A stretch of DNA of 64,000 bases from Ancylobacter mangrovi. GTDB taxonomy: Bacteria > Pseudomonadota > Alphaproteobacteria > Rhizobiales > Xanthobacteraceae. The notes under the pieces were generated by a model that made no database searches, was not told where the DNA came from, and was given only the letters and a program-made list of their open reading frames with translations. Within the stretch, counting starts at the first letter, position 1. Each line of letters opens with the position of its first letter. Shown in pieces: positions 19,029-30,600 of the stretch. The stretch covers positions 1-64,000 of the forward strand of contig NZ_JANTHZ010000010.1 of assembly GCF_024752355.1 (NCBI RefSeq), read 5' to 3'. Made by a program: the position numbers and the translations under genes.

Positions 19029-21232
19029 AGCGAGCTGCCTTGCTGATCGTGCTTGCGGGAGCCATCGTTCCCGCGATCGCCCAGCAAGTCCAGCTCCCTG
19101 GAGGCTCCGGCAACTCCACCAATAGCGGCTCCCGCCCCAAGGTCGACGAGACCGCCCTGCGCTACTTCGCCTCCCAGGGCGACACGCGCCGCCTCGAGGC
19201 CGAGATCGCCCGCCTGCGCGCGCTCTATCCCGAGTGGTCGCCGCCCGCCGACCTGTTCGGTCCGCAGACCGACACCGAGCTGGAGCGGATGTGGAAGCTC
19301 TACGCCGACGGCAAGTATTCGGACGTGCGCAGCGCCATCGCCGCCCGTCAGGCCGCCGACCCGCAATGGGACCCGCCGGCCGACCTGCTGGCCCGCCTCA
19401 ACGAGGCCGAGGGCCGCCAGCGCCTGATCAACGCTTCCGACGCCCAGCAGTGGAACACGGTGCTGCGCATCGCCACCGAAGCGCCGGGCCTTCTGACCTG
19501 CGCCAATGTCGACATACTGTGGCGCGTCGCCGAGGCCTTCGCCAAGACCGACCAGACCCCGCGCGCCCTCGACGCCTACACCTACGTGCTCACCAACTGC
19601 AACGACACCAGCGAGCGCGTGGCGACGGTGCAGAAGGCGATCCCGCTGCTGACGGACGACGAGATCCAGAACCTGCTCAAGCTCGAGCGCAAGGACGCGC
19701 AGGGCAAGCCGGAATTCGCCGTGCTGCGCGACGACCTGATCCGCCGGCGCATGGGCAAGGCGGCCGAGAACCCCGAATTCACCGTCCCCGAGGCCGACAT
19801 CACCCGGATGGAGGAGCTCTCCAAGCAGAGCACGACCGCGGGCGATCCGCTGGTGCTCGGCTGGTACCTGTTCCGCCACGACGACGCCAAGCGCGCGCTC
19901 GAATGGTTCAAGCTGGCGCTGGACCGCAAGGGCGGGCCGAAGGCGGCCGAGGGCTACGTGCTAGCGCTCAACTCGCTCGGCCGCGCGCTCGAGGCGGAGC
20001 CGATCGCCTATGAATGGCGCGACAGCGCGCCCGAGAACAACAAGGCCTATCTCGACGTCGTCATCAGCCTGCTGACCGCCGATCCCCCGCCGGTGCTGGA
20101 CGAGATCGTGCTCACGCGCTTCAGCCCGGTGGTGATGCGCGACAAGTACGTCCCCGGCGCGCAGGCGCTCGGCTGGTACGCCTACAATACCGGGCAGATC
20201 GTCACCGCCCGCTCCTGGTTCGAGACCGCGCTCAACTGGGACCCGAACGACGAGCCTTCCGCCTACGGCCTCGCCCTCGCCTACTGGCGGCTGAAGGACG
20301 GCGCGCGGCTCAACGCGCTGGTGCGGGCCTGGGGCACGCGCTCCGAGCGCATCGTCGCCCTGGTCGACCCGGCGGTCCGCGCCCGGCTGGAGGCGCGCAA
20401 CGCCCAGTCCCAGATCACCACCTATACCGACCCGCTGATCGCCGCCGCCGCCCGCCTGACCCCGACCCCGACCCTGCAGCCGCCCCCGCTCGGCGCGCCG
20501 AGCGCGACGCTGGGCTCGAACACGCAGTTCCAGCCGGTGCCGGGCTCCACGGTGACGGCCTATGCGCCCACCAGCCAGTTCCAGCCGGTGCCGCAGTTCG
20601 AGGGTTCCTCGGCGCAGCCCGCGGCCCAGCCGGTGAGCTACACCGAGCAGACGACCTACACCGCGCCGCCGACCCCGCCGCGCCGCCGGAGCGTGACCCG
20701 CTCGGTCGCCCGCACCGGCAGCAGCGTGTCGGAATCGGGCGGCTCGGCCGGCGCCGCGCTCGCCCGCGCCTGGAAGCTGATGGAGCTCAACCGGCCGATC
20801 GAGGCGATCCCGGAATTCGACTACGCGATCAAGTACGGCCAGGGCCGCACCGCCGAGGACGCCGCCTACGGCAAGTCCCTCGCCTATATGCGCAAGGGCA
20901 TGACCAACGCCGCCCAGGCCGCCGCGCTCCAGGCGCCGCAGAACCCGCGCCGTTCGCTGCAGCTCAGCGCCGACCTGCTGGCCCAGCGCGCCTACGAGTT
21001 CTATCGCGACGGGCGCTATGTCGAGGCGATCATCTCGCTCGACGAGCATGCCCGCCTCGCCCCCGAGCAGCAGGACATGATGCTGCTGCGCGCCTGGTGC
21101 TACTACCAGCTCCACGACTACCAGTCGGCGAAGCGCATCTTCAGGGCGCTGGCGGCACAGGGCAATGTGAAGGCCAACGAAGGCATCAACGCGATCGCCG
21201 CTTCCACCCGCCAGCTCCGCGACGCCTACTGA
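19019..21232 (+). CDS. bcsK: TPR-repeat cellulose operon protein (BcsK-like, lacks the BcsC barrel)
   Basis: This is the last gene of the cellulose operon; its ATG lies 10 bp inside bcsZ. The 737 residues comprise a signal peptide (LLIVLAGAIVPAIAQ), then helical tetratricopeptide-like repeats (about 40-470), a Pro/Gln-rich linker (about 480-570, with QFQPVP twice) and further TPR-like helices (about 580-730). BcsC exporters of enterobacteria combine TPRs with a C-terminal outer-membrane beta-barrel; no barrel is present here. From memory, the periplasmic TPR protein of the Agrobacterium-type operons is called BcsK, and the layout fits. It may scaffold the periplasmic path of the glucan or bind peptidoglycan. 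The symbol is given with moderate certainty. Confidence 0.75.
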   Translation: MSLKRAALLIVLAGAIVPAIAQQVQLPGGSGNSTNSGSRPKVDETALRYFASQGDTRRLEAEIARLRALYPEWSPPADLFGPQTDTELERMWKLYADGKYSDVRSAIAARQAADPQWDPPADLLARLNEAEGRQRLINASDAQQWNTVLRIATEAPGLLTCANVDILWRVAEAFAKTDQTPRALDAYTYVLTNCNDTSERVATVQKAIPLLTDDEIQNLLKLERKDAQGKPEFAVLRDDLIRRRMGKAAENPEFTVPEADITRMEELSKQSTTAGDPLVLGWYLFRHDDAKRALEWFKLALDRKGGPKAAEGYVLALNSLGRALEAEPIAYEWRDSAPENNKAYLDVVISLLTADPPPVLDEIVLTRFSPVVMRDKYVPGAQALGWYAYNTGQIVTARSWFETALNWDPNDEPSAYGLALAYWRLKDGARLNALVRAWGTRSERIVALVDPAVRARLEARNAQSQITTYTDPLIAAAARLTPTPTLQPPPLGAPSATLGSNTQFQPVPGSTVTAYAPTSQFQPVPQFEGSSAQPAAQPVSYTEQTTYTAPPTPPRRRSVTRSVARTGSSVSESGGSAGAALARAWKLMELNRPIEAIPEFDYAIKYGQGRTAEDAAYGKSLAYMRKGMTNAAQAAALQAPQNPRRSLQLSADLLAQRAYEFYRDGRYVEAIISLDEHARLAPEQQDMMLLRAWCYYQLHDYQSAKRIFRALAAQGNVKANEGINAIAASTRQLRDAY

Positions 21233-21248
21233 GGGCGCGCCACGGGCT

Positions 21249-21265
21249 CCGCACCCAAGGTGCGG
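21249..21265. terminator. Hairpin between the convergent cellulose and sel operons
   Basis: The perfect arms CCGCACC (21249-21255) and GGTGCGG (21259-21265) form a 7-bp stem with a 3-base loop, 16 bp after the TPR-protein stop. There is no T run. It lies just past the selB stop on the other strand, so it may serve both directions. Confidence 0.5.
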
Positions 21266-21271
21266 TGCCGG

Positions 21272-23347
21272 TCAGCGCGGGGCGGAGAGTGGCGGAAGAG
21301 AGTGGGAGTCGAACCCACCAGAGACCGGCTCGCGGCCCCTCCCGGATTTGAAGTCCGGACGCCCCACCAGGGACGCCTCTCTTCCAGAAGCTTCCGGCGC
21401 AGTCTCCCCGATCGGCCCGAACAGGTCCAGACGGTGCCGGTTGATGCGCCTGAGATCTCCCCGGCGCAGCGTGACGCCGTGGCGGTCGAGGAATTCGAGG
21501 ATCTGGATCGCCACCTTGCGCCCGACCGCATGCTCGCCATGCTCGATCCGGTCGCGGAAGGCGGCGGCAGCGAACTGTCCGCCGGGCGCGGCCTCGGCCA
21601 GCTCCTTCGCCATGCCCACCATCGCGGCGACGGTGGCGCGCAGGAAGAAGTGGTCGTGCGCCACCTCGTCGACCCGCCCCATGCGGCCGAGCAGCTTCAT
21701 CAGCCGGCGGATATCGGCCTCCGGCTCGCCGGTCGCCCCGGCGATGTCGCGCACGCGCGGCGGGCGGAAGCGCTCGACCCCGGCAAGGCGCGGTTCGATC
21801 CGCTCCCACAGCAGCTCGTCGTCGCGGGTCAGGCGCACCTCGTGGCCGGGCAGCCGCACCCATGCCCCTTCCAGCACCAGCCATCCCTCGCCGGCCAGGC
21901 GCCGCAGTGCCTCGGCGAAGACCGGTCTGTCGAGGCGCGGCACCAGCGCCAGCCGCAGCTTCTCCGCGCCCATGCCCGCGAGATCGGGATTTGCGTCGTG
22001 AAAGCGTGTCAGCTCGTCCAGCAGCGCGGCGCGCAAGCTTTCCCAGCGCCCGGCCGCGAGCGCGACGCGCGCCTCGCCCGCGCTCAGCAGCACCAGCCCG
22101 GCATCGGCCGCGAGCGCCGCGGCGGCTTCCGCGCCCAGCGCCCGGTCGCGGGCGAAGGCGCCGAGCTCGACATGCCAGGGCTCCACCGCCAGCAGCCCGG
22201 CGAGCGCCTGCGCGGGGTCGGCCCGCTCCATCGCCTCGAGCTGGGCGAGGCGCGCGGGCGTCCGGCGGTGGCGCGCCGGGGCGCGCAGGTCGAGAAAGGT
22301 GCCCCCGCCAATGGTGCGCCGGGCGGAGGTGTCGCGGATCACGAAGCGGTCGCCGCAAGCCGCCGCGACCGGACGGTCGAGTACGAGCTGCACCAGCGCC
22401 CGCCCTCCCGGCGGCACGGTCTCGGCCGACAGCGGCACCAGCCGCGCGCCGACCTCGGCGGAGGCATGATGCAGGCGCACCGGAAACCATTGCCCGAGCG
22501 GCTTCGGCTCCTCCGCCAGCACGCGAAGGCGCGCGTCGATGCGCGCGGTCGGCGCGTGCAGGGTCGGGTCGAGCACCATGTCGCCGCGCGCGATCGCCTC
22601 ATGGGTCACGCCCTCGCCGGCGAGGTTCAGCGCGCAGCGGTCGCCGGCGACGCCGCGCTCGGCCTTGCGGTTCTGGGCATGGATCGAGCGCACCCGCGCG
22701 CCGAGCCCCGGCGGGCTGACCGTCACCCGGTCCCCCACCGCCACCGCTCCGGAGAGCACCGTGCCCGTCACCACCGTGCCGGCCCCGGCAAGGGTGAAGC
22801 AGCGGTCGACGGCGAGGCGGAAGCGGCCCTCCCCGCTGCGGGCGGCGAAATCCCGCGCGGCGGCGACTAGGCGGGCGCGAAGATCCTCGATCCCCTCGCC
22901 GGTCGCTGCGGAAACCGGAACGACCGGCGCGCCCTCGAGCACCGTGCCCTCGGCCAGCGCCGCGATCTCGGCCGCGACCGCGTCGCGGCGGTCCGCATCG
23001 GCGAGGTCCGCCTTGGTCAGCGCGACGATGCCGTTCGCAATGCCCAGCAGGTCCAGCAGGGCGAGATGCTCGCGCGTCTGCGGCATCACCCCGTCGTCGG
23101 CGGCGACCACCAGCAGGGCGAAGTCGATCCCGCTCGCCCCGGCCAGCATGGTGTGGATGAAGCGCTCATGGCCCGGCACGTCGATGAAGCCGAGCGTGCC
23201 GGCCTCGGTCGGGAGATAGGCAAAGCCGAGGTCGATGGAGATGCCGCGCGCCTTCTCCTCCTTCAGCCGGTCGGTATCGACCCCGGTCAGCGCACCGATC
23301 AGGGCCGTCTTGCCGTGGTCGATATGCCCTGCCGTGCCGATGATCAT
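21272..23347 (-). CDS. selB: Selenocysteine-specific elongation factor SelB
   Basis: This GTPase delivers Sec-tRNA to the ribosome at UGA codons by binding GTP, Sec-tRNA-Sec and the mRNA SECIS hairpin. Start: ATG at 23347 overlapping the selA stop (ATGA); [11 protein letters not shown] follows at once. G-domain motifs are [14 protein letters not shown] and TKAD. EF-Tu-like domains II-III follow, then an extra domain and C-terminal winged-helix repeats that bind SECIS (ending near [16 protein letters not shown]). The reading frame is 691 codons versus about 614 in E. coli. Its last 45 or so codons have no family similarity because they read through the tRNA-Sec gene on the same strand, and the stop lies beyond the tRNA 3' end. 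Confidence 0.95.
21290..21385 (-). tRNA. selC: tRNA-Sec (anticodon TCA, CCA encoded)
   Basis: This 96-nt tRNA starts GGAAGAGA and ends TCTCTTCC-G-CCA, giving the 8-bp acceptor stem typical of bacterial tRNA-Sec. The anticodon loop CTTCAAA within GGACTTCAAATCC reads UGA. There is a long variable arm (GGGGCCGCGAGCC region) and a T-loop with GGTTCGACTCC. The layout closely follows E. coli selC. The whole gene lies inside the 3' end of the selB reading frame in sense orientation, 5' end at 21385 and 3' end at 21290, and the selB stop is 16 bp downstream of the tRNA end. It probably matures by cleavage of the fdo-sel transcript. Confidence 0.97.
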
Positions 23348-24771
23348 GGCGCCGTCCCCAATGCGCCGAGGCTGGCGAGGAAGCCTTCCGGGTCTTCGAG
23401 GCAACGCAGGTCGAGCAGCAGCGCGCCCTCGGCGATCCGTCCGATCACCGGCACCGGCAGCGCGCGCAGCGCCGCCGCCAGCCCGTTGAGCAGGCCGCCC
23501 GACGCCCCGTCGGCGGGGCGGATGGCGAGCGCGGCGCTCGGCAGCGTCTCCAGCGGCAGCGCGCCCGAGCCGATCTGGCTGGCGCAGTCCGCCACCTCGA
23601 CCGAGAAGTCGGCGCCAAGTATCTGCGCGACCGGCCCGGCCAGCGCGGCGCCGAGCGCGGCGAGTTCCTCGCGCGTGCGGGTCAGCAGGCGCAGCGTCGG
23701 CAGCCTCTGCGCCAGCCGCTCCGGGTCGCGATAGAGCCGCAGCGTTGCCTCCAGCGCGGCGAGGCGGATCTTGTCGACTCTCAACGCGCGCTTCATCGGA
23801 TTCCTGTTGATCCGGGCGATCAGGTCGGCGCGCCCGACGATGAAGCCGGTCTGCGGCCCGCCCAGCAGCTTGTCGCCCGAGAAGGTGACGATGTCCGCCC
23901 CCTCCGCCACCGCCTCGCGCACGGTCGGCTCATGGGCGAGGCCGAGCCGCGACAGGTCGACCAGCGTGCCCGAGCCGAGATCGTTCACCAGCGGCACGCC
24001 GCGCTCCCCGGCGATTTCGGCCAGCTCGCGCGCGCCGACTTCGCTGGTGAAACCCTCGATCCGGTAGTTCGAGGTGTGCACCTTCAGCACCAGCCCGGTC
24101 TCTGGCGACAGCGCGCCCGCATAGTCCTTCGGGTGGGTGCGGTTGGTGGTGCCGACCTCGACCAGCTTCACCCCCGCCCGGGCCATGATGTCCGGCATGC
24201 GGAAGGCACCGCCGATCTCGATCAGCTCGCCCCGCGAGACGATCGCCTCGCGGCCGAGGCCGAGCGTGTTGAGCACCAGCAGGACGGCGGCGGCGTTGTT
24301 GTTGACGACCGTCGCATCCTCGGCCCCGGTCAGCTCGACCAGCAGGTCGCGCACATGGTCGTCGCGCTCGCCGCGCCGGCCGGTGTCGAGGTCGAATTCC
24401 AGCGCCACGGCGGCGCGCATGGCGGAGGTCGCGGCCTCCACCGCCTCCTCCGCCAGCAGCGCCCGGCCGAGATTGGTGTGCAGCACTGTGCCGGTGAGGT
24501 TGAAGACCGGGCGCAGCCGGCCGCGCGCCGCCCGCGCCAGCGCGTCACCGGCGGCCAGCGCGACATGGTCGGGCGAGGGAAGGCTCGCGAGCTGGCCGGC
24601 CAGCAGGAAGCGGCGCACCTCCTCCAGCGCGGCGCGCACCGCGCCGGTCGCGGCGGCGCGGCCGAAGCGCTCGGCGGCGAGCCGGGCGGCCGGCGTCTTC
24701 AGCACGAGGTCGACCGAGGGCAGGTCGCGCAGCGAGGGTCGGTCGAGGGAGCCGTCGGTGGAAGCATCCAT
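23344..24771 (-). CDS. selA: L-seryl-tRNA(Sec) selenium transferase SelA
   Basis: This PLP enzyme converts Ser-tRNA-Sec to Sec-tRNA-Sec using selenophosphate. The 475 residues start [21 protein letters not shown]; the ORF is open further upstream but that part overlaps fdhE and has no family similarity. Recognisable elements are the [16 protein letters not shown] segment, the [16 protein letters not shown] stretch, [12 protein letters not shown], and the PLP-binding [12 protein letters not shown] with Lys301. It sits 11 bp after fdhE and overlaps selB by 4 bp (ATGA), so fdhE, selA and selB are co-transcribed behind the formate dehydrogenase genes. Confidence 0.97.
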
Positions 24772-24782
24772 GGCGCGTGCCC

Positions 24783-25694
24783 TCAATAGCCGAGCAGGAA
24801 GGGGTTGAACGCGGCGCGCCGATAGGGGCCCTCGCGCATCATCAGGTCGAGCGCGAGCGTGCCGATGTCGTCCGCCATCGGCTCGATGGCGGGGTCCTTG
24901 TTCTGGTACATCACCTTCACATAGGTGCGGCACTCGTCGCAGGTCTCGGCCTTGATGGTGCCGGGGCTCTGCTCGATCTCCTGATAGCCGATGCCCTTGG
25001 TGGTGCCGCAGGAGCAGCAGCGTATGCGCACATAGTGCCAGAGCGTCGAGCACAGCGAGCAGGCGCAGAAGCGGTTGCCGTGCGCGTTCGGCCACTCGAC
25101 GATGAGCGAGGCGACCGGCGGGCCGCCGCAGGACGGGCACACGCCGTCGCCGACCGGCTGCAGCGAAGGCGCGTCGAGCGCGGCGGCGAGCCTCGTGAAG
25201 TGCACCTGCAGAGCCGCGGCGACATAGATGTGCTCGGCCAGCATTTCCACCGGCATGGCGTGGGCGAGCACGTCGCGCACCATCTGCGCGCGCTGCGCCC
25301 CGTCCGCCGCGCTCACCCGGGCCAGCGCCTCGCCCGCCTCGTCCGGCATGGCGACCTGCGTCGCGGCGTCGAACAGCGCATCGAGCGTGGTCTCCAGCGT
25401 GTCGTCGAGCGTCGTGCCGGGCCGGTCGAGCGGCGGCATCTGGTGGGAAGCGGCGCGGGCCAGCATCTCCGCGTCCGGCATCTCGACCGGTGGCAGGCCG
25501 GCGAGGATGGCGTGCTGGGCATCGACCAGCCCGGCGACGAAGCTGAGATAGGGCTTGAGCGGGCTGACCTCGGCATAGGTCCTCAGCCGCGCGGCGCGCG
25601 CCGTGAACACGCTCGCAGGATCGGGCAGAACCGCGAAGGGCGGGGTCGAGACAGTGCCGATCACGCTGGGATCGGGCTGCGGAATGACTGACAT
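24783..25694 (-). CDS. fdhE: Formate dehydrogenase accessory protein FdhE
   Basis: FdhE is a cytoplasmic iron-binding protein needed for active respiratory formate dehydrogenase, probably acting during maturation or redox quality control of the selenoprotein. The start is ATG at 25694 (MSVIPQPDP), with GAGGAC upstream; 303 residues is the usual length. The C-terminal half carries paired cysteine motifs like rubredoxin knuckles: CPSCGGPP, CSLCSTLWHYVRIRCCSCG and CDECRTYVKVMYQ. The N-terminal half includes DPASVFTARAARLRTYAE and SPLKPYLSFVAGLVDAQ, typical of the family. It lies 207 bp downstream of fdoI, the widest gap in the otherwise tight minus-strand run. Confidence 0.95.
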   Translation of the reverse strand: MSVIPQPDPSVIGTVSTPPFAVLPDPASVFTARAARLRTYAEVSPLKPYLSFVAGLVDAQHAILAGLPPVEMPDAEMLARAASHQMPPLDRPGTTLDDTLETTLDALFDAATQVAMPDEAGEALARVSAADGAQRAQMVRDVLAHAMPVEMLAEHIYVAAALQVHFTRLAAALDAPSLQPVGDGVCPSCGGPPVASLIVEWPNAHGNRFCACSLCSTLWHYVRIRCCSCGTTKGIGYQEIEQSPGTIKAETCDECRTYVKVMYQNKDPAIEPMADDIGTLALDLMMREGPYRRAAFNPFLLGY

Positions 25695-25901
25695 GCTGTC
25701 CTCACGAACCGTACCGGCCACGTGGATACGCGACGGGGGCCCCTGCCGGGACCCGGAACCCTGCCGGCCGGCGACCGACCGCCGAAGCGGCGGCCGACCG
25801 GCCCGACGGGCGATATAGGGCACCGCCGGAGCGCCCGCCAGCCGCCGCCTCACGCGGGAGGCACACCGGCAGGCACGGAGGCCGGACGGCGGTTGTTCCG
25901 C

Positions 25902-26621
25902 CTACTCGGCCGGCGCGCGCGGGCCGCGGGCCCGCCGACCCACCAGCTCGCGCAGCCACTTGCGATGGTGGCGCCACGCCCAGCCGCCGGTGACGCTGCC
26001 GCGCGTCATCGCGCCGATCGTTCCCTTCACCCAGATCGCGGCATAGACGTGGATGATCCACACGCAGATGATCACCACAGCGGTGATCGAGTGCACGAGT
26101 ATCGCGATGCGCTTCTGCTCGATGGTGGTGTAGGGGAAGAAGTACTGGTCCCACATCACCACGCCGGAGAGGATCAGGATCACGATCAGCCCGGACATGG
26201 ACCAGAACACGCCCTTCTGGCCGGCATTGTACTTGCCGACCTCGGGCATCTTCTCCTCGTGACCCGCCAGCAGGTCGCCCGAATGCGCGACCCAGGTCAC
26301 GTCCTCGCGCGCCGGAAGGTTGGCGCGGAAGAAGCGGATGAACAGGATCATGAAGGAGAAGAACAGCACCACCCCGATCCAGGGATGGATGGCACGCGTC
26401 CACTGCCCGCCGCCGAACAGGGCGGTCAGGAAGAACAGCTTCGGCGTGTAGAGCGCCAGTCCAGACAGCGCGAGCAGCACCAGGCTGATCGCGGTGATCC
26501 AGTGGTTGATGCGCGCGGCGACGGTGTAGCGATCGACGATCACCGGCCGGCCGGGATGCACCGCGTCGCCCGCTTCGACATCGTCCGGAACCTCCGGAGC
26601 CTTCCGGTCGTAAGCCGTCAT
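25902..26621 (-). CDS. fdoI: Formate dehydrogenase cytochrome b subunit (gamma)
   Basis: This di-heme b membrane subunit anchors the formate dehydrogenase and passes electrons from the Fe-S subunit to quinone. The 239 residues contain four hydrophobic helices and the expected heme-ligand histidines: [32 protein letters not shown], and the pair in [21 protein letters not shown]. Its start overlaps the fdoH stop (ATGA). The C-terminus is basic ([18 protein letters not shown]). The presence of this subunit identifies the enzyme as the respiratory FdnGHI/FdoGHI type rather than a soluble NAD-linked one. Confidence 0.95.
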
Positions 26622-27613
26622 GGCGTCCTCCCCCGGCTTGGCGGCTCGGAAGGCGGGGACGGCGGCGGCGCGGTCCGGCCTTCTGTGAGCCTCTCGGCGT
26701 TCTCCTCGTCCTCCTCCGTGACCTTGTTCGGTCCGGCGACGACATAGTGCAGGAGACCCGCGGCGGCGGCGAAGCCCATCACGGCGAGGCCGACATATTT
26801 GGTCGCGCCCTTCCAGGCCTGCACGATCGGCGAGATGTGCGGATCGTCGGGCAGGTTGGCGTAGATGGACGGCTGGTCCGCATGCGGCAGCACGTACATG
26901 ACATGGGTGCCGCCCACGCCCTGCGGGTCATAGAGCCCGGCATTGTCGAAACCGCGCGTCTTCAGGTCCTTGATGCGGAAATCCGCCCAGTCCTTCATCT
27001 CGGCCTTAGTGCCGAAGACGATGGCCTGGGTCGGGCACGCCTTCTGGCAGGCCGGCCCCTGCCCGACTGCGACGCGGTCCGAGCACAGCGTGCACTTGTA
27101 GACCGTGTTGTCGGCCTTCGACATGCGCGGGATGTCGAACGGGCATCCCTTGATGCAGTAGCCGCAGCCGATGCAGTTCTCGTGGATGAAGTCCACGATG
27201 CCGTTGGAGTACTGCACGATCGCGCCGGGCGAGGGGCAGGCCTTCAGGCAGCCCGGATCCTCGCAATGCATGCAGCCATCCTTGCGGATGAGCCATTCGA
27301 GATTGTCGGTCTGCGGATTCACCCATTCGGTGAAGCGCATCAGCGTGAAGGTGTTCGCCGTCAGGTCCATGGGGTTGGTGTAGACCCCGTGGTTGAAGCC
27401 GATCTCCTCGTGCAGCTGGTTCCATTCGAGGCAGGCCGACTGGCACGCCTTGCAGCCGATGCACTTGGAGATGTCGATCAGCTTGGCCACCTCGGTGAGC
27501 CGCTCGGCGGGCGGCGTCACCTCGGAGGCCGAGCGGCGCATGATGTCCTTCTCGCCGAAGCGCGGCTTGGCCGCGGCCGGGTCGACGGACGGGTTGGGAA
27601 TAGGTGGGAACAT
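26618..27613 (-). CDS. fdoH: Formate dehydrogenase iron-sulfur subunit (beta)
   Basis: This electron-transfer subunit carries four [4Fe-4S] clusters between the catalytic subunit and cytochrome b. The 331 residues show the four cysteine groups in order: [35 protein letters not shown] and [22 protein letters not shown] single C-terminal helix ([20 protein letters not shown]) anchors it in the membrane. The ATG at 27613 follows GGGAGG; the N-terminal 45 residues before the ferredoxin domain are somewhat longer than in E. coli. It lies 13 bp after fdoG. Confidence 0.96.
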
Positions 27614-27626
27614 CGCGCCGCCTCCC

Positions 27627-30600
27627 TTACGCCACCGGCCCGGTCGAGGGCTCGATATTGACCATGAACGCCTTGTATTCCGGGGTCTGGATGTTGGCGT
27701 CGCCCACGAAGGGGGTCAGCACGTTGGCCGGGAAGCCCTTGCGGGCCGCGCCGACGAAGCCCCAGTGGATCGGCACGCCGACGACGTGGACGGTCTTGCC
27801 GTCGATCGTCATCGGCTTGATCCGCTTGGTCACCACCGCCTTGGCGAAGAGCGAGCCGCGCTTCGACCACACCCGGACCCAGCCGCCGAGCTCGATGCCC
27901 TTTTCCTTCGCCAGTTCCTCGGAAATCTCGACGAACTGCTCGGGCTGGAGGACCGAGTTCACGTGGTTGTTCTTGGTCCAGTAGTGGAAGTGCTCGGTGA
28001 GGCGGTAGGTCGTCCCCGCATAGGGGAAGGCCGGGTCGCCGATGTCGGCGAACTGCTTCCAGTCGTCCGCGAACACGCGCGCCGCCGGGTTGCCGCGCAC
28101 CTTGGGCGCGATGACGTTGGCGACCGCGCTCTCGAACGGCTCGTAATGCACCGGGAACGGCCCCTCGCGCATCATGGTGCGCGCGAACAGGCGCCCGGTG
28201 CCCTCCGGGTTCATGATGAACGGCCCGACCTCGCGCGGATTGGCGGTCGGCGCGATGTCCGGCACGTCATAGCCGGTCCATTTCTGGCCGTTCCACTCGA
28301 TCAGCTTCCGCGAAGGGTCCCACGGCTTGCCGTCGAGGTCGCAGGAGGCGCGATTGTAGAGGATGCGCCGGTTGGCCGGCCAGGCGAACGCCCAGTTGAG
28401 ATAGGCGCCGGTGTCGCCGGGATCGGAATTGTCCCGCCGCGCCATCATGTTGCCGGCCTCGGTGAAGCTGCCGGTGAACAGCCAGCAGCCGGACGCCGTG
28501 GTGCCGTCGTCGCGCAGCTGGCCGAAGCCGGAGAGCTGCTTGCCGCCCTCCAGCAGCCGCTTGGTCGGGTCGTTCGGATCGAACACGTCGACCAGCGCCG
28601 AGCCGTTCATCTCCCTGGCGAGCTCGGCGGGGGTGGGCTCGCCGGGGTCCTGATAGGCCCAGTTGAGGTTGACGATCGGATCGGGGAAGGCGCCGCCTTC
28701 CTTGCGGTAGAGGTCGCGCAGGCGCAGGAAGATCTGCGCCATGATCCAGCTGTCGTGCTGGGCCTCGCCCGGAGGCGAGCCGCCCGCCCAGTGCCATTGC
28801 AGCCAGCGGCCGGAATTCACCAGTGCGCCCTCGTCCTCCGCGAAGCAGGTCGTGGGAAGCTGGATCACCTCGGTCTGGATGCTCGCCGGGTCCGCCTGGT
28901 TGAAGTCGCCATGGTTCTCCCAGAACCGCGCGGTCTCGGTCTCGAGCGGGTCCATGATCACGAGCAGCTTGAGCTTGGCGAGTGCCTCGGCGAGCTTGGC
29001 CTTGTTGGGGAAGGCCTGCAGCGGATTGAACCCCTGGCAGAAATAGAGGTTCATCTTGCCCTGCTTCATCCGCTCGAAGGCGAGCAGGATGTCGTATTGC
29101 GGCACGTCGAGCTTGGGCAGGTAGTTGTAGGCCCACTCGTTCTCCGCCGTGGCGGCGTTGCCGAACATCGACTTCATGAAGCTGACGAAGAACTTGCGGT
29201 AATTCTGCCAGTAGCTCATCTGGTTCGGCCGCAACGGCTTGAAGCCGCGGGTCGACATGTAGGTCGCGAAGTCCGGCTCGCTGTCCTTGGGGATGTTCAG
29301 ATAGCCCGGGATGAGGTTGCTCAGCAGCCCGAGATCGGTCAGCCCCTGGATGTTGGAGTGGCCGCGAAGCGCGTTCACCCCGCCGCCGCGCATCCCGATA
29401 TTGCCGAGGATGAGCTGCAGCATCGCCATGCAGCGGATGTTCTGCGCGCCCTTGGAGTGCTGGGTCCAGCCGAGCGCGTACATCGAGGTCATGATCTTGT
29501 TCGGCGCCGAGCACTCGCCGATCATCTCCGCCACCTTCAGGAACTTGTCCTTCGGCGTGCCGCAGATGCGCTCGACCACTTCCGGCGTGTAGGCGGCGAC
29601 ATGCTCCTTCAGCAGGTTCCAGACGCAGCGCGGATTCGCCAGCGTCTCGTCGACCACCGCATAGCCGTCGTCGCCGATCTGGTAGTCCCAGGTGGAGCGA
29701 TCGTAGTCGCGCTTTTCCTCGTCATAGCCGGTGAACAGGCCGTCATGGTACTCGAAGCCCTCCTTCACCACGAAGGTCGCGTTGGTGAAGGGCTTCACAT
29801 AGTCCCAGAGCACCTTGTCGTTGATGATGCACTGGTTGATGACGCCCAGCAGGAAGGCAATGTCGGTGCCCTGGCGGATCGGCGCGTAATAGTCCGCCAC
29901 CGCCGCCGAGCGGTTGTAGCGGGGGTCGACGACGATCAGCTTGGCGCCGCGGTTGGCCTTCGCCTCCGTGACCCATTTGAAGCCGCACGGATGCGCCTCG
30001 GCGGCGTTGCCGCCCATGATGATGGCGAGGTCGGTATTCTTGATGTCCGTCCAGGAGTTGGTCATTGCTCCACGGCCGAAAGTTGGGGCGAGACTCGCCA
30101 CCGTCGGGCCGTGTCAGACGCGTGCCTGGTTGTCGAACGCCAGAATGCCGGTCGCGCGCACCACCTTGTAGGTGGCGAACGCGGTTTCGTTGGTGGTCGC
30201 TGAGGCGGCCAGGAAGCCGGCGGTCAGCCAGCGGTTCACCGTGACGCCCGCCTCGTTGGTCGGGATGAAGTTCGCGTCGCGGTCGTCCTTCATGGCGCGG
30301 GCGATCTTGTCGAGCGCCGCATCCCAGGAGATCGGCTCGAACCGGTCGGACCCGGCCTTGCGCAGCATCGGCCGTGTCAGGCGCGTCTCCGACTTCACGA
30401 TGTCCAGGAGCGCCGCGCCCTTGGGGCACAGCGTGCCGCGGTTGGTGGGATGGTCCGCATCGCCCTCGATATGGACGATGTTGGCCTTCTCGCCCTTCCT
30501 GAGGTCGCCCTTCGAATAGAGGATGATGCCGCAGGCGACCGAGCAGTAGGTGCAGGTGTTTCGCGTTTCCGTGGTGTTCACCAGGCGGAACGGCTTGACC

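Follow-up and report, generated by a model that had tools for sequence, protein, structure and literature searches.

A tRNA-Sec gene nested in selB of Ancylobacter mangrovi lies in a reading frame that looks to be under selection

The selB gene of Ancylobacter mangrovi holds the whole of selC, its tRNA-Sec gene, in sense at its 3' end. Sequence comparison across relatives indicates that what goes beyond chance is the phase in which the SelB frame enters the tRNA, rather than the open frame alone, and the reading frame through the tRNA looks to be under selection. The nested layout is genuine, is widespread within the family and is not new: Mukai published it in 2021 (PMC8124441), with the hypothesis that RNase P processing leaves a non-stop selB mRNA, the same idea as in a first-pass annotation of this DNA. 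By Mukai's account it was the first bacterial tRNA gene reported inside a protein frame, and passages in two reviews (PMC13188914, PMC9312934) repeat the report. Among open-licence PMC papers no experimental follow-up of the model was found, and no test of frame selection was seen in the text of PMC8124441. What appears to be new here is the comparative evidence for selection on the frame through the tRNA, including at loci where no downstream gene was detected.

Features located in the window, the whole 64,000-nucleotide stretch of contig NZ_JANTHZ010000010.1 that was analysed, are given in Table 1.

Table 1. Features of the selB-selC locus and neighbouring genes, in window coordinates.
Feature	Coordinates	Strand	Basis
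selB reading frame	21272..23404	-	TIGR00475 412.8 bits; SelB elongation factor with C-terminal extension
selC, tRNA-Sec (UCA), 96 nt, encoded CCA	21290..21385	-	ARAGORN and Rfam RF01852
Spacer, 33 nt, conserved SelB end (LDLF) to tRNA nt 1	21386..21418	-	sequence
Tail, 15 nt, tRNA 3' end to stop	21275..21289	-	sequence
selB stop codon TGA	21272..21274	-	sequence
GC hairpin, 7 bp, no T-run, directly past selB stop	21249..21265	not assigned	sequence
selA	23344..25140	-	TIGR00474 582.1 bits; stop overlaps likely selB ATG
fdhE	24783..25853	-	TIGR01562 291.3 bits
Formate dehydrogenase beta subunit	26618..27613	-	TIGR01582 464.7 bits
Formate dehydrogenase alpha subunit, part matching TIGR01553 profile positions 201-1008	27627..30101	-	
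SECIS_3 element at formate dehydrogenase alpha gene	30061..30119	-	85.9 bits

ARAGORN finds one tRNA-Sec in the window, with anticodon TCA, and Rfam RF01852 matches it at 21294-21385 with 81.9 bits. The gene lies entirely within selB, with its nucleotide 1 at codon position 1 and its 96 bases read as 32 codons. The TIGR00475 match spans SelB residues 20-654 and the last winged-helix match, PF09107, covers residues 609-653 of 710; LDLF ends at residue 662 and is followed by 11 spacer residues, 32 tRNA-encoded residues (674-705), five tail residues and the TGA. The first-pass annotation had described a selB frame without a stop ahead of the tRNA that spans all 96 bases of selC, and this is borne out by ARAGORN, Rfam and the ORF coordinates. 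Its run-on beyond the tRNA also stands, with the distance corrected from 16 bp to 15 nt before the stop codon, as does the tRNA-encoded protein end, which amounts to 37 residues in and after the tRNA instead of about 45.

The 710 codons are counted from a TTG in the mechanical ORF list; the ATG at 23347, giving 691 codons, is probably the natural selB start. The selA stop and this ATG overlap as ATGA at 23344-23347 in the ORF coordinates, and from this overlap selB translation may be coupled to that of selA. The cluster comprises genes for a Sec formate dehydrogenase alpha subunit (with SECIS_3) and beta subunit, fdhE, selA and selB-selC, and the alpha subunit is the likely selenoprotein client of the locus. 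The next gene downstream of selB is convergent, has TPR matches and ends at 21232; the hairpin between the two genes is a possible weak terminator, and the terminator scan called no site at it. The genome as a whole has 11 tRNA-Sec profile matches, among which the window gene is the sole tRNA-Sec found; the second match above the Rfam cut-off (C1:103988) was rejected as a tRNA-Ser by ARAGORN. A tmRNA gene is present in the genome.

The window resembles the nested loci of PMC8124441 in carrying a whole 96-nt tRNA-Sec in sense at the selB 3' end, in its first tRNA codon GGA (Gly) and the CCA read as Pro, in its length class of 96 (or 93) nt, which according to a remark in that paper may ease frame keeping, and in its linkage to Sec formate dehydrogenase genes and selA. 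It is unlike many, though not all, of them in that no ORF1/ORF2 starts at the selB stop and the next gene is convergent. Ancylobacter is not named in the text of that paper.

The spread of the arrangement was examined with a tRNA-Sec search of the family (149 genomes), the order (297) and the class (385), each set including the window's genome, plus 80 named loci retrieved with SelB; in the family search only matches of at least 69 bits were fetched (67 of the listed matches). Removal of 29 duplicates from 221 tRNA-Sec genes left 192 distinct ones: 100 nested, 48 with the selB stop before the tRNA, five with the stop inside it, one running off its contig, one with selB antisense, and 37 without selB nearby, some of which may have selB farther away, as search-derived loci came with flanks of about 1.5 kb. 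The comparison of SelB ends and selC positions that the first-pass annotation proposed shows that in relatives the stop is not always ahead of the tRNA: selB is upstream in sense of 154 distinct tRNA-Sec genes, 100 of them nested. A sequencing error as the cause of the missing stop is ruled out by these 100 distinct loci with the same layout. The sample is skewed to close kin, and with duplicates between sets kept the nested share is 51/66 of family loci other than the genome's own and 64/79 of named SelB relatives, compared with 2/19 and 2/54 of the loci newly fetched from the order and the class. Seven genomes of the genus, window included, comprise three nested loci, two with the stop inside the tRNA and two with the stop before it; six of 13 named Ancylobacter loci are nested and seven are not.

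Several loci deserve separate mention. A record titled Mycobacterium sp. KBS0706 (L064) carries a nested alphaproteobacterial selB-selC and groups with two Inquilinus limosus loci; it is probably misnamed. Two strong tRNA-Sec matches occur in each of three genomes, G145 (L017, L172), G072 and G059; in G145 one tRNA-Sec is nested and the other lies behind a distant selB (43% identity) with its stop ahead of the tRNA. By eye, two loci without overlap (L173, L039) have a stop codon 3-4 nt ahead of the tRNA and, about 15 nt past it, a GC hairpin with a T-rich stretch behind it, together resembling an intrinsic terminator. The antisense selB (L222) does not overlap its tRNA.

Reading phase was compared in 148 loci, six of the 154 being left out with selB in sense but at least 260 nt away; tRNA starts were normalised where ARAGORN had added 5' bases, and the 32 loci without a spacer anchor were still counted for phase. 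Of the 100 nested loci, 99 have the tRNA beginning at codon position 1, whereas the three phases are spread as 12, 13 and 17 over the 42 stop-before loci. The sole nested locus out of phase (L016) has a frame-shifted SelB LDLF motif region, which may be sequence error or decay. Spacers of the 97 anchored nested loci come in 24 lengths from 18 to 111 nt, every one a multiple of three, with a stop in the SelB frame in none of the 97 and in the other frames in 21 and 40 of them; in the 14 anchored stop-before loci the spacer length leaves remainders of 0, 1 and 2 in three, seven and four cases.

An open frame through the tRNA was dropped as evidence by itself: in the window none of the three sense frames has a stop within it, and each of the other two frames runs unbroken through most of the nested tRNAs (86 and 94 of 100). 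Frame-shifted readings of spacer plus tRNA would likewise stay open in 118 of 194 cases, so that the demand for an open frame does not dictate the fixed phase. On a quick tree of 147 SelB tails (one of the 148 loci is not in it), in which 46 of 144 inner branches are open, event counts are approximate and gain is not told apart from loss, the nested rows show at least 49 changes of spacer length (96 rows) against one change of phase (99 rows), compared with 16 length changes and nine phase changes in the 19 anchored non-nested rows (Fisher p 3e-6 for nested versus non-nested event counts).

The same tree has at least 14 changes between the nested and non-nested states, some of them within the genus. 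Since four of the seven genus genomes also lack the overlap, the comparison shows that the overlap is dispensable and that a coupling through it is not essential; overlap losses are also reported in PMC8124441. Such turnover would suit a neutral overlap, in which selC has a promoter of its own inside selB and read-through plays no part. A promoter might likewise cause the dip in fourfold-site divergence, which is 0.25-0.37 upstream and falls to 0.21 over the final 15 codons of SelB (37 nested pairs, with only three non-nested for comparison) and may hint at an RNA or DNA signal at the selB end. A neutral frame would not, however, hold multiples of three through so many spacer length changes, and a scan of 21100-21800 gave no sigma-70-like site, although such a scan says little in a GC-rich alphaproteobacterium. 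We regard a neutral overlap as improbable.

The position of the stop points in the same direction as the phase. Within 36 nt past the tRNA the first stop falls in the SelB frame in 90 of the 99 phase-0 nested loci and in the other frames in 10 and 10, counts that shared ancestry inflates; in non-nested loci a SelB-frame stop lies so close in 14 of 47. At least 42 changes of tail length are counted over the 98 nested rows. Together, the constant phase and the nearby stop argue that ribosomes read through the tRNA.

A near stop might instead serve a downstream gene, the overlap being kept to couple translation of ORF1/ORF2 to selB and being a decaying relic in the genus of the window. An ORF1-like (60) or ORF2-like (8) frame starts within 220 nt in 68 of 100 nested loci, compared with six of 42 stop-before and one of five stop-inside loci, and in 49 of the 68 it starts one base before the selB stop (ATGA type); the profiles were built from pattern-picked seeds, so some frames may be missed. 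At the window locus (L001) the profiles found no ORF1/2, and its selB stop overlaps no ORF1/ORF2 start; the genus, without detected ORF1/2, is also the one in which four of seven genomes lack the overlap. In Pfam, 60-residue pieces of ORF1/ORF2 gave a single match, below the cut-off. The near stop is not confined to loci with these genes, however: it lies within 36 nt in 60 of 67 nested loci with ORF1/2 (other frames six and seven) and in 30 of 32 without (other frames four and three), one of the latter (L015) having just 80 nt downstream. Prompt termination is thus kept where no coupled gene was detected, and among 31 rows without ORF1/2 the length of the spacer has changed at least 15 times and that of the tail at least 18 times. 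An independent-pairs test of nesting against ORF1/2 presence yielded eight pairs and was not significant. Coupling to ORF1/ORF2 as the reason for the overlap is doubtful.

Fixed phase and prompt stop would also be expected if the peptide encoded by the tRNA and tail were a working C-terminal part of SelB, with the tRNA sequence also serving as conserved coding sequence. Across 18 independent close pairs the SelB core has a pN/pS of 0.15, the spacer one of 0.75 and the tail one of 0.49; the last value leans towards such a part but comes from only 94 codons, and SelB proteins are reported to retain a shorter extension after tRNA disruption (PMC8124441). The spacer value is near the 1.07 and 0.79 obtained in the wrong frames, so that by these ratios it is the frame of the spacer that is conserved more than its amino-acid sequence. 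Further against a working peptide, the 48 loci with the stop ahead of the tRNA have a SelB without any tRNA-encoded part, and conservation within the tRNA is indistinguishable from conservation of the tRNA itself. We give this explanation little credence.

The reading that we favour, by a modest measure of confidence when taken as a whole, is that one transcript serves as both selB mRNA and precursor of the cell's tRNA-Sec. Ribosomes would read the tRNA as message, always in one frame, and terminate within a few codons of its end, a step that the comparative evidence supports. The tRNA would then fold and RNase P would cut its 5' end, leaving a selB message without a stop from which no more full-length SelB could be made; tmRNA would rescue the ribosomes stalled on it. 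SelB output per transcript would in this way be limited by tRNA-Sec production, and SelB kept from sequestering Sec-tRNA.

Predicted folds are in keeping with a contest between ribosome and tRNA. The tRNA alone folds as expected, with acceptor-stem pair probabilities of 0.84-1.0; with flanks of 30-200 nt the acceptor pairs drop to probabilities of 0.28-0.73 in the modelled ensemble, and the minimum-energy structure computed with 60-nt flanks has no acceptor stem. The fold model leaves out tertiary contacts and folding during transcription, and flanks competing with the tRNA fold are in this model compatible with competition between translation and folding, rather than proof of it, and speak neither for nor against control of SelB.

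This reading is the Mukai model (PMC8124441), extended to include selection on read-through as far as the stop. The non-stop idea of the first-pass annotation is partly supported, being sound in its anatomy and in the competition it proposed; it agrees with the published model, the single selC, the tmRNA gene and the signs that the frame is translated. In its pure form it predicts neither the fixed phase nor the nearness of the stop behind the tRNA. As it needs an open frame only as far as the tRNA 5' end, full read-through must also matter: if the comparisons are read correctly, either full-length read-through has value or a longer run-on is harmful.

A more speculative reading is that the message is translated first and the tRNA excised afterwards, giving a burst of SelB, then one tRNA-Sec, after which the message is disabled. 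The stop would be placed such that the terminating ribosome just clears the tRNA 3' end, so that the tRNA could fold again and be excised; the distance argument draws on the size of the ribosome footprint. The stop lies at least 15 nt past the tRNA in 86 of 99 nested loci and in 27 of the 32 without a downstream gene, but a ribosome-binding site or simple ancestry may account for this distance instead. We hold such a counting mechanism to be unlikely; if true, it would build a ratio of elongation factor to tRNA into each transcript.

Parts of the favoured scheme are found in other systems. In mRNA-tRNA operons of E. coli, for example secG-leuU, an mRNA and a tRNA are cut from one transcript, as proposed here, but the tRNA is outside the protein frame, unlike selB-selC. 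E. coli arfA, as described in passages of PMC8012679, has a structure within its ORF at which a nuclease cut leaves a non-stop mRNA that limits the protein; there a stem-loop is cut by RNase III or ends transcription, with trans-translation as the regulator, whereas the structure here would be a functional tRNA cut by RNase P. A tRNA-Lys lies within mitochondrial cox1 of Armadillidium vulgare in direct orientation, like nested selC, according to the account relayed in PMC8124441, but that case belongs to a compact mitochondrial genome.

The selB-selC overlap is a rare instance of a bacterial tRNA gene within a protein frame, and one in which both products work together. The published model of its control has been a hypothesis since 2021, and the conservation of the frame makes a direct test worthwhile.
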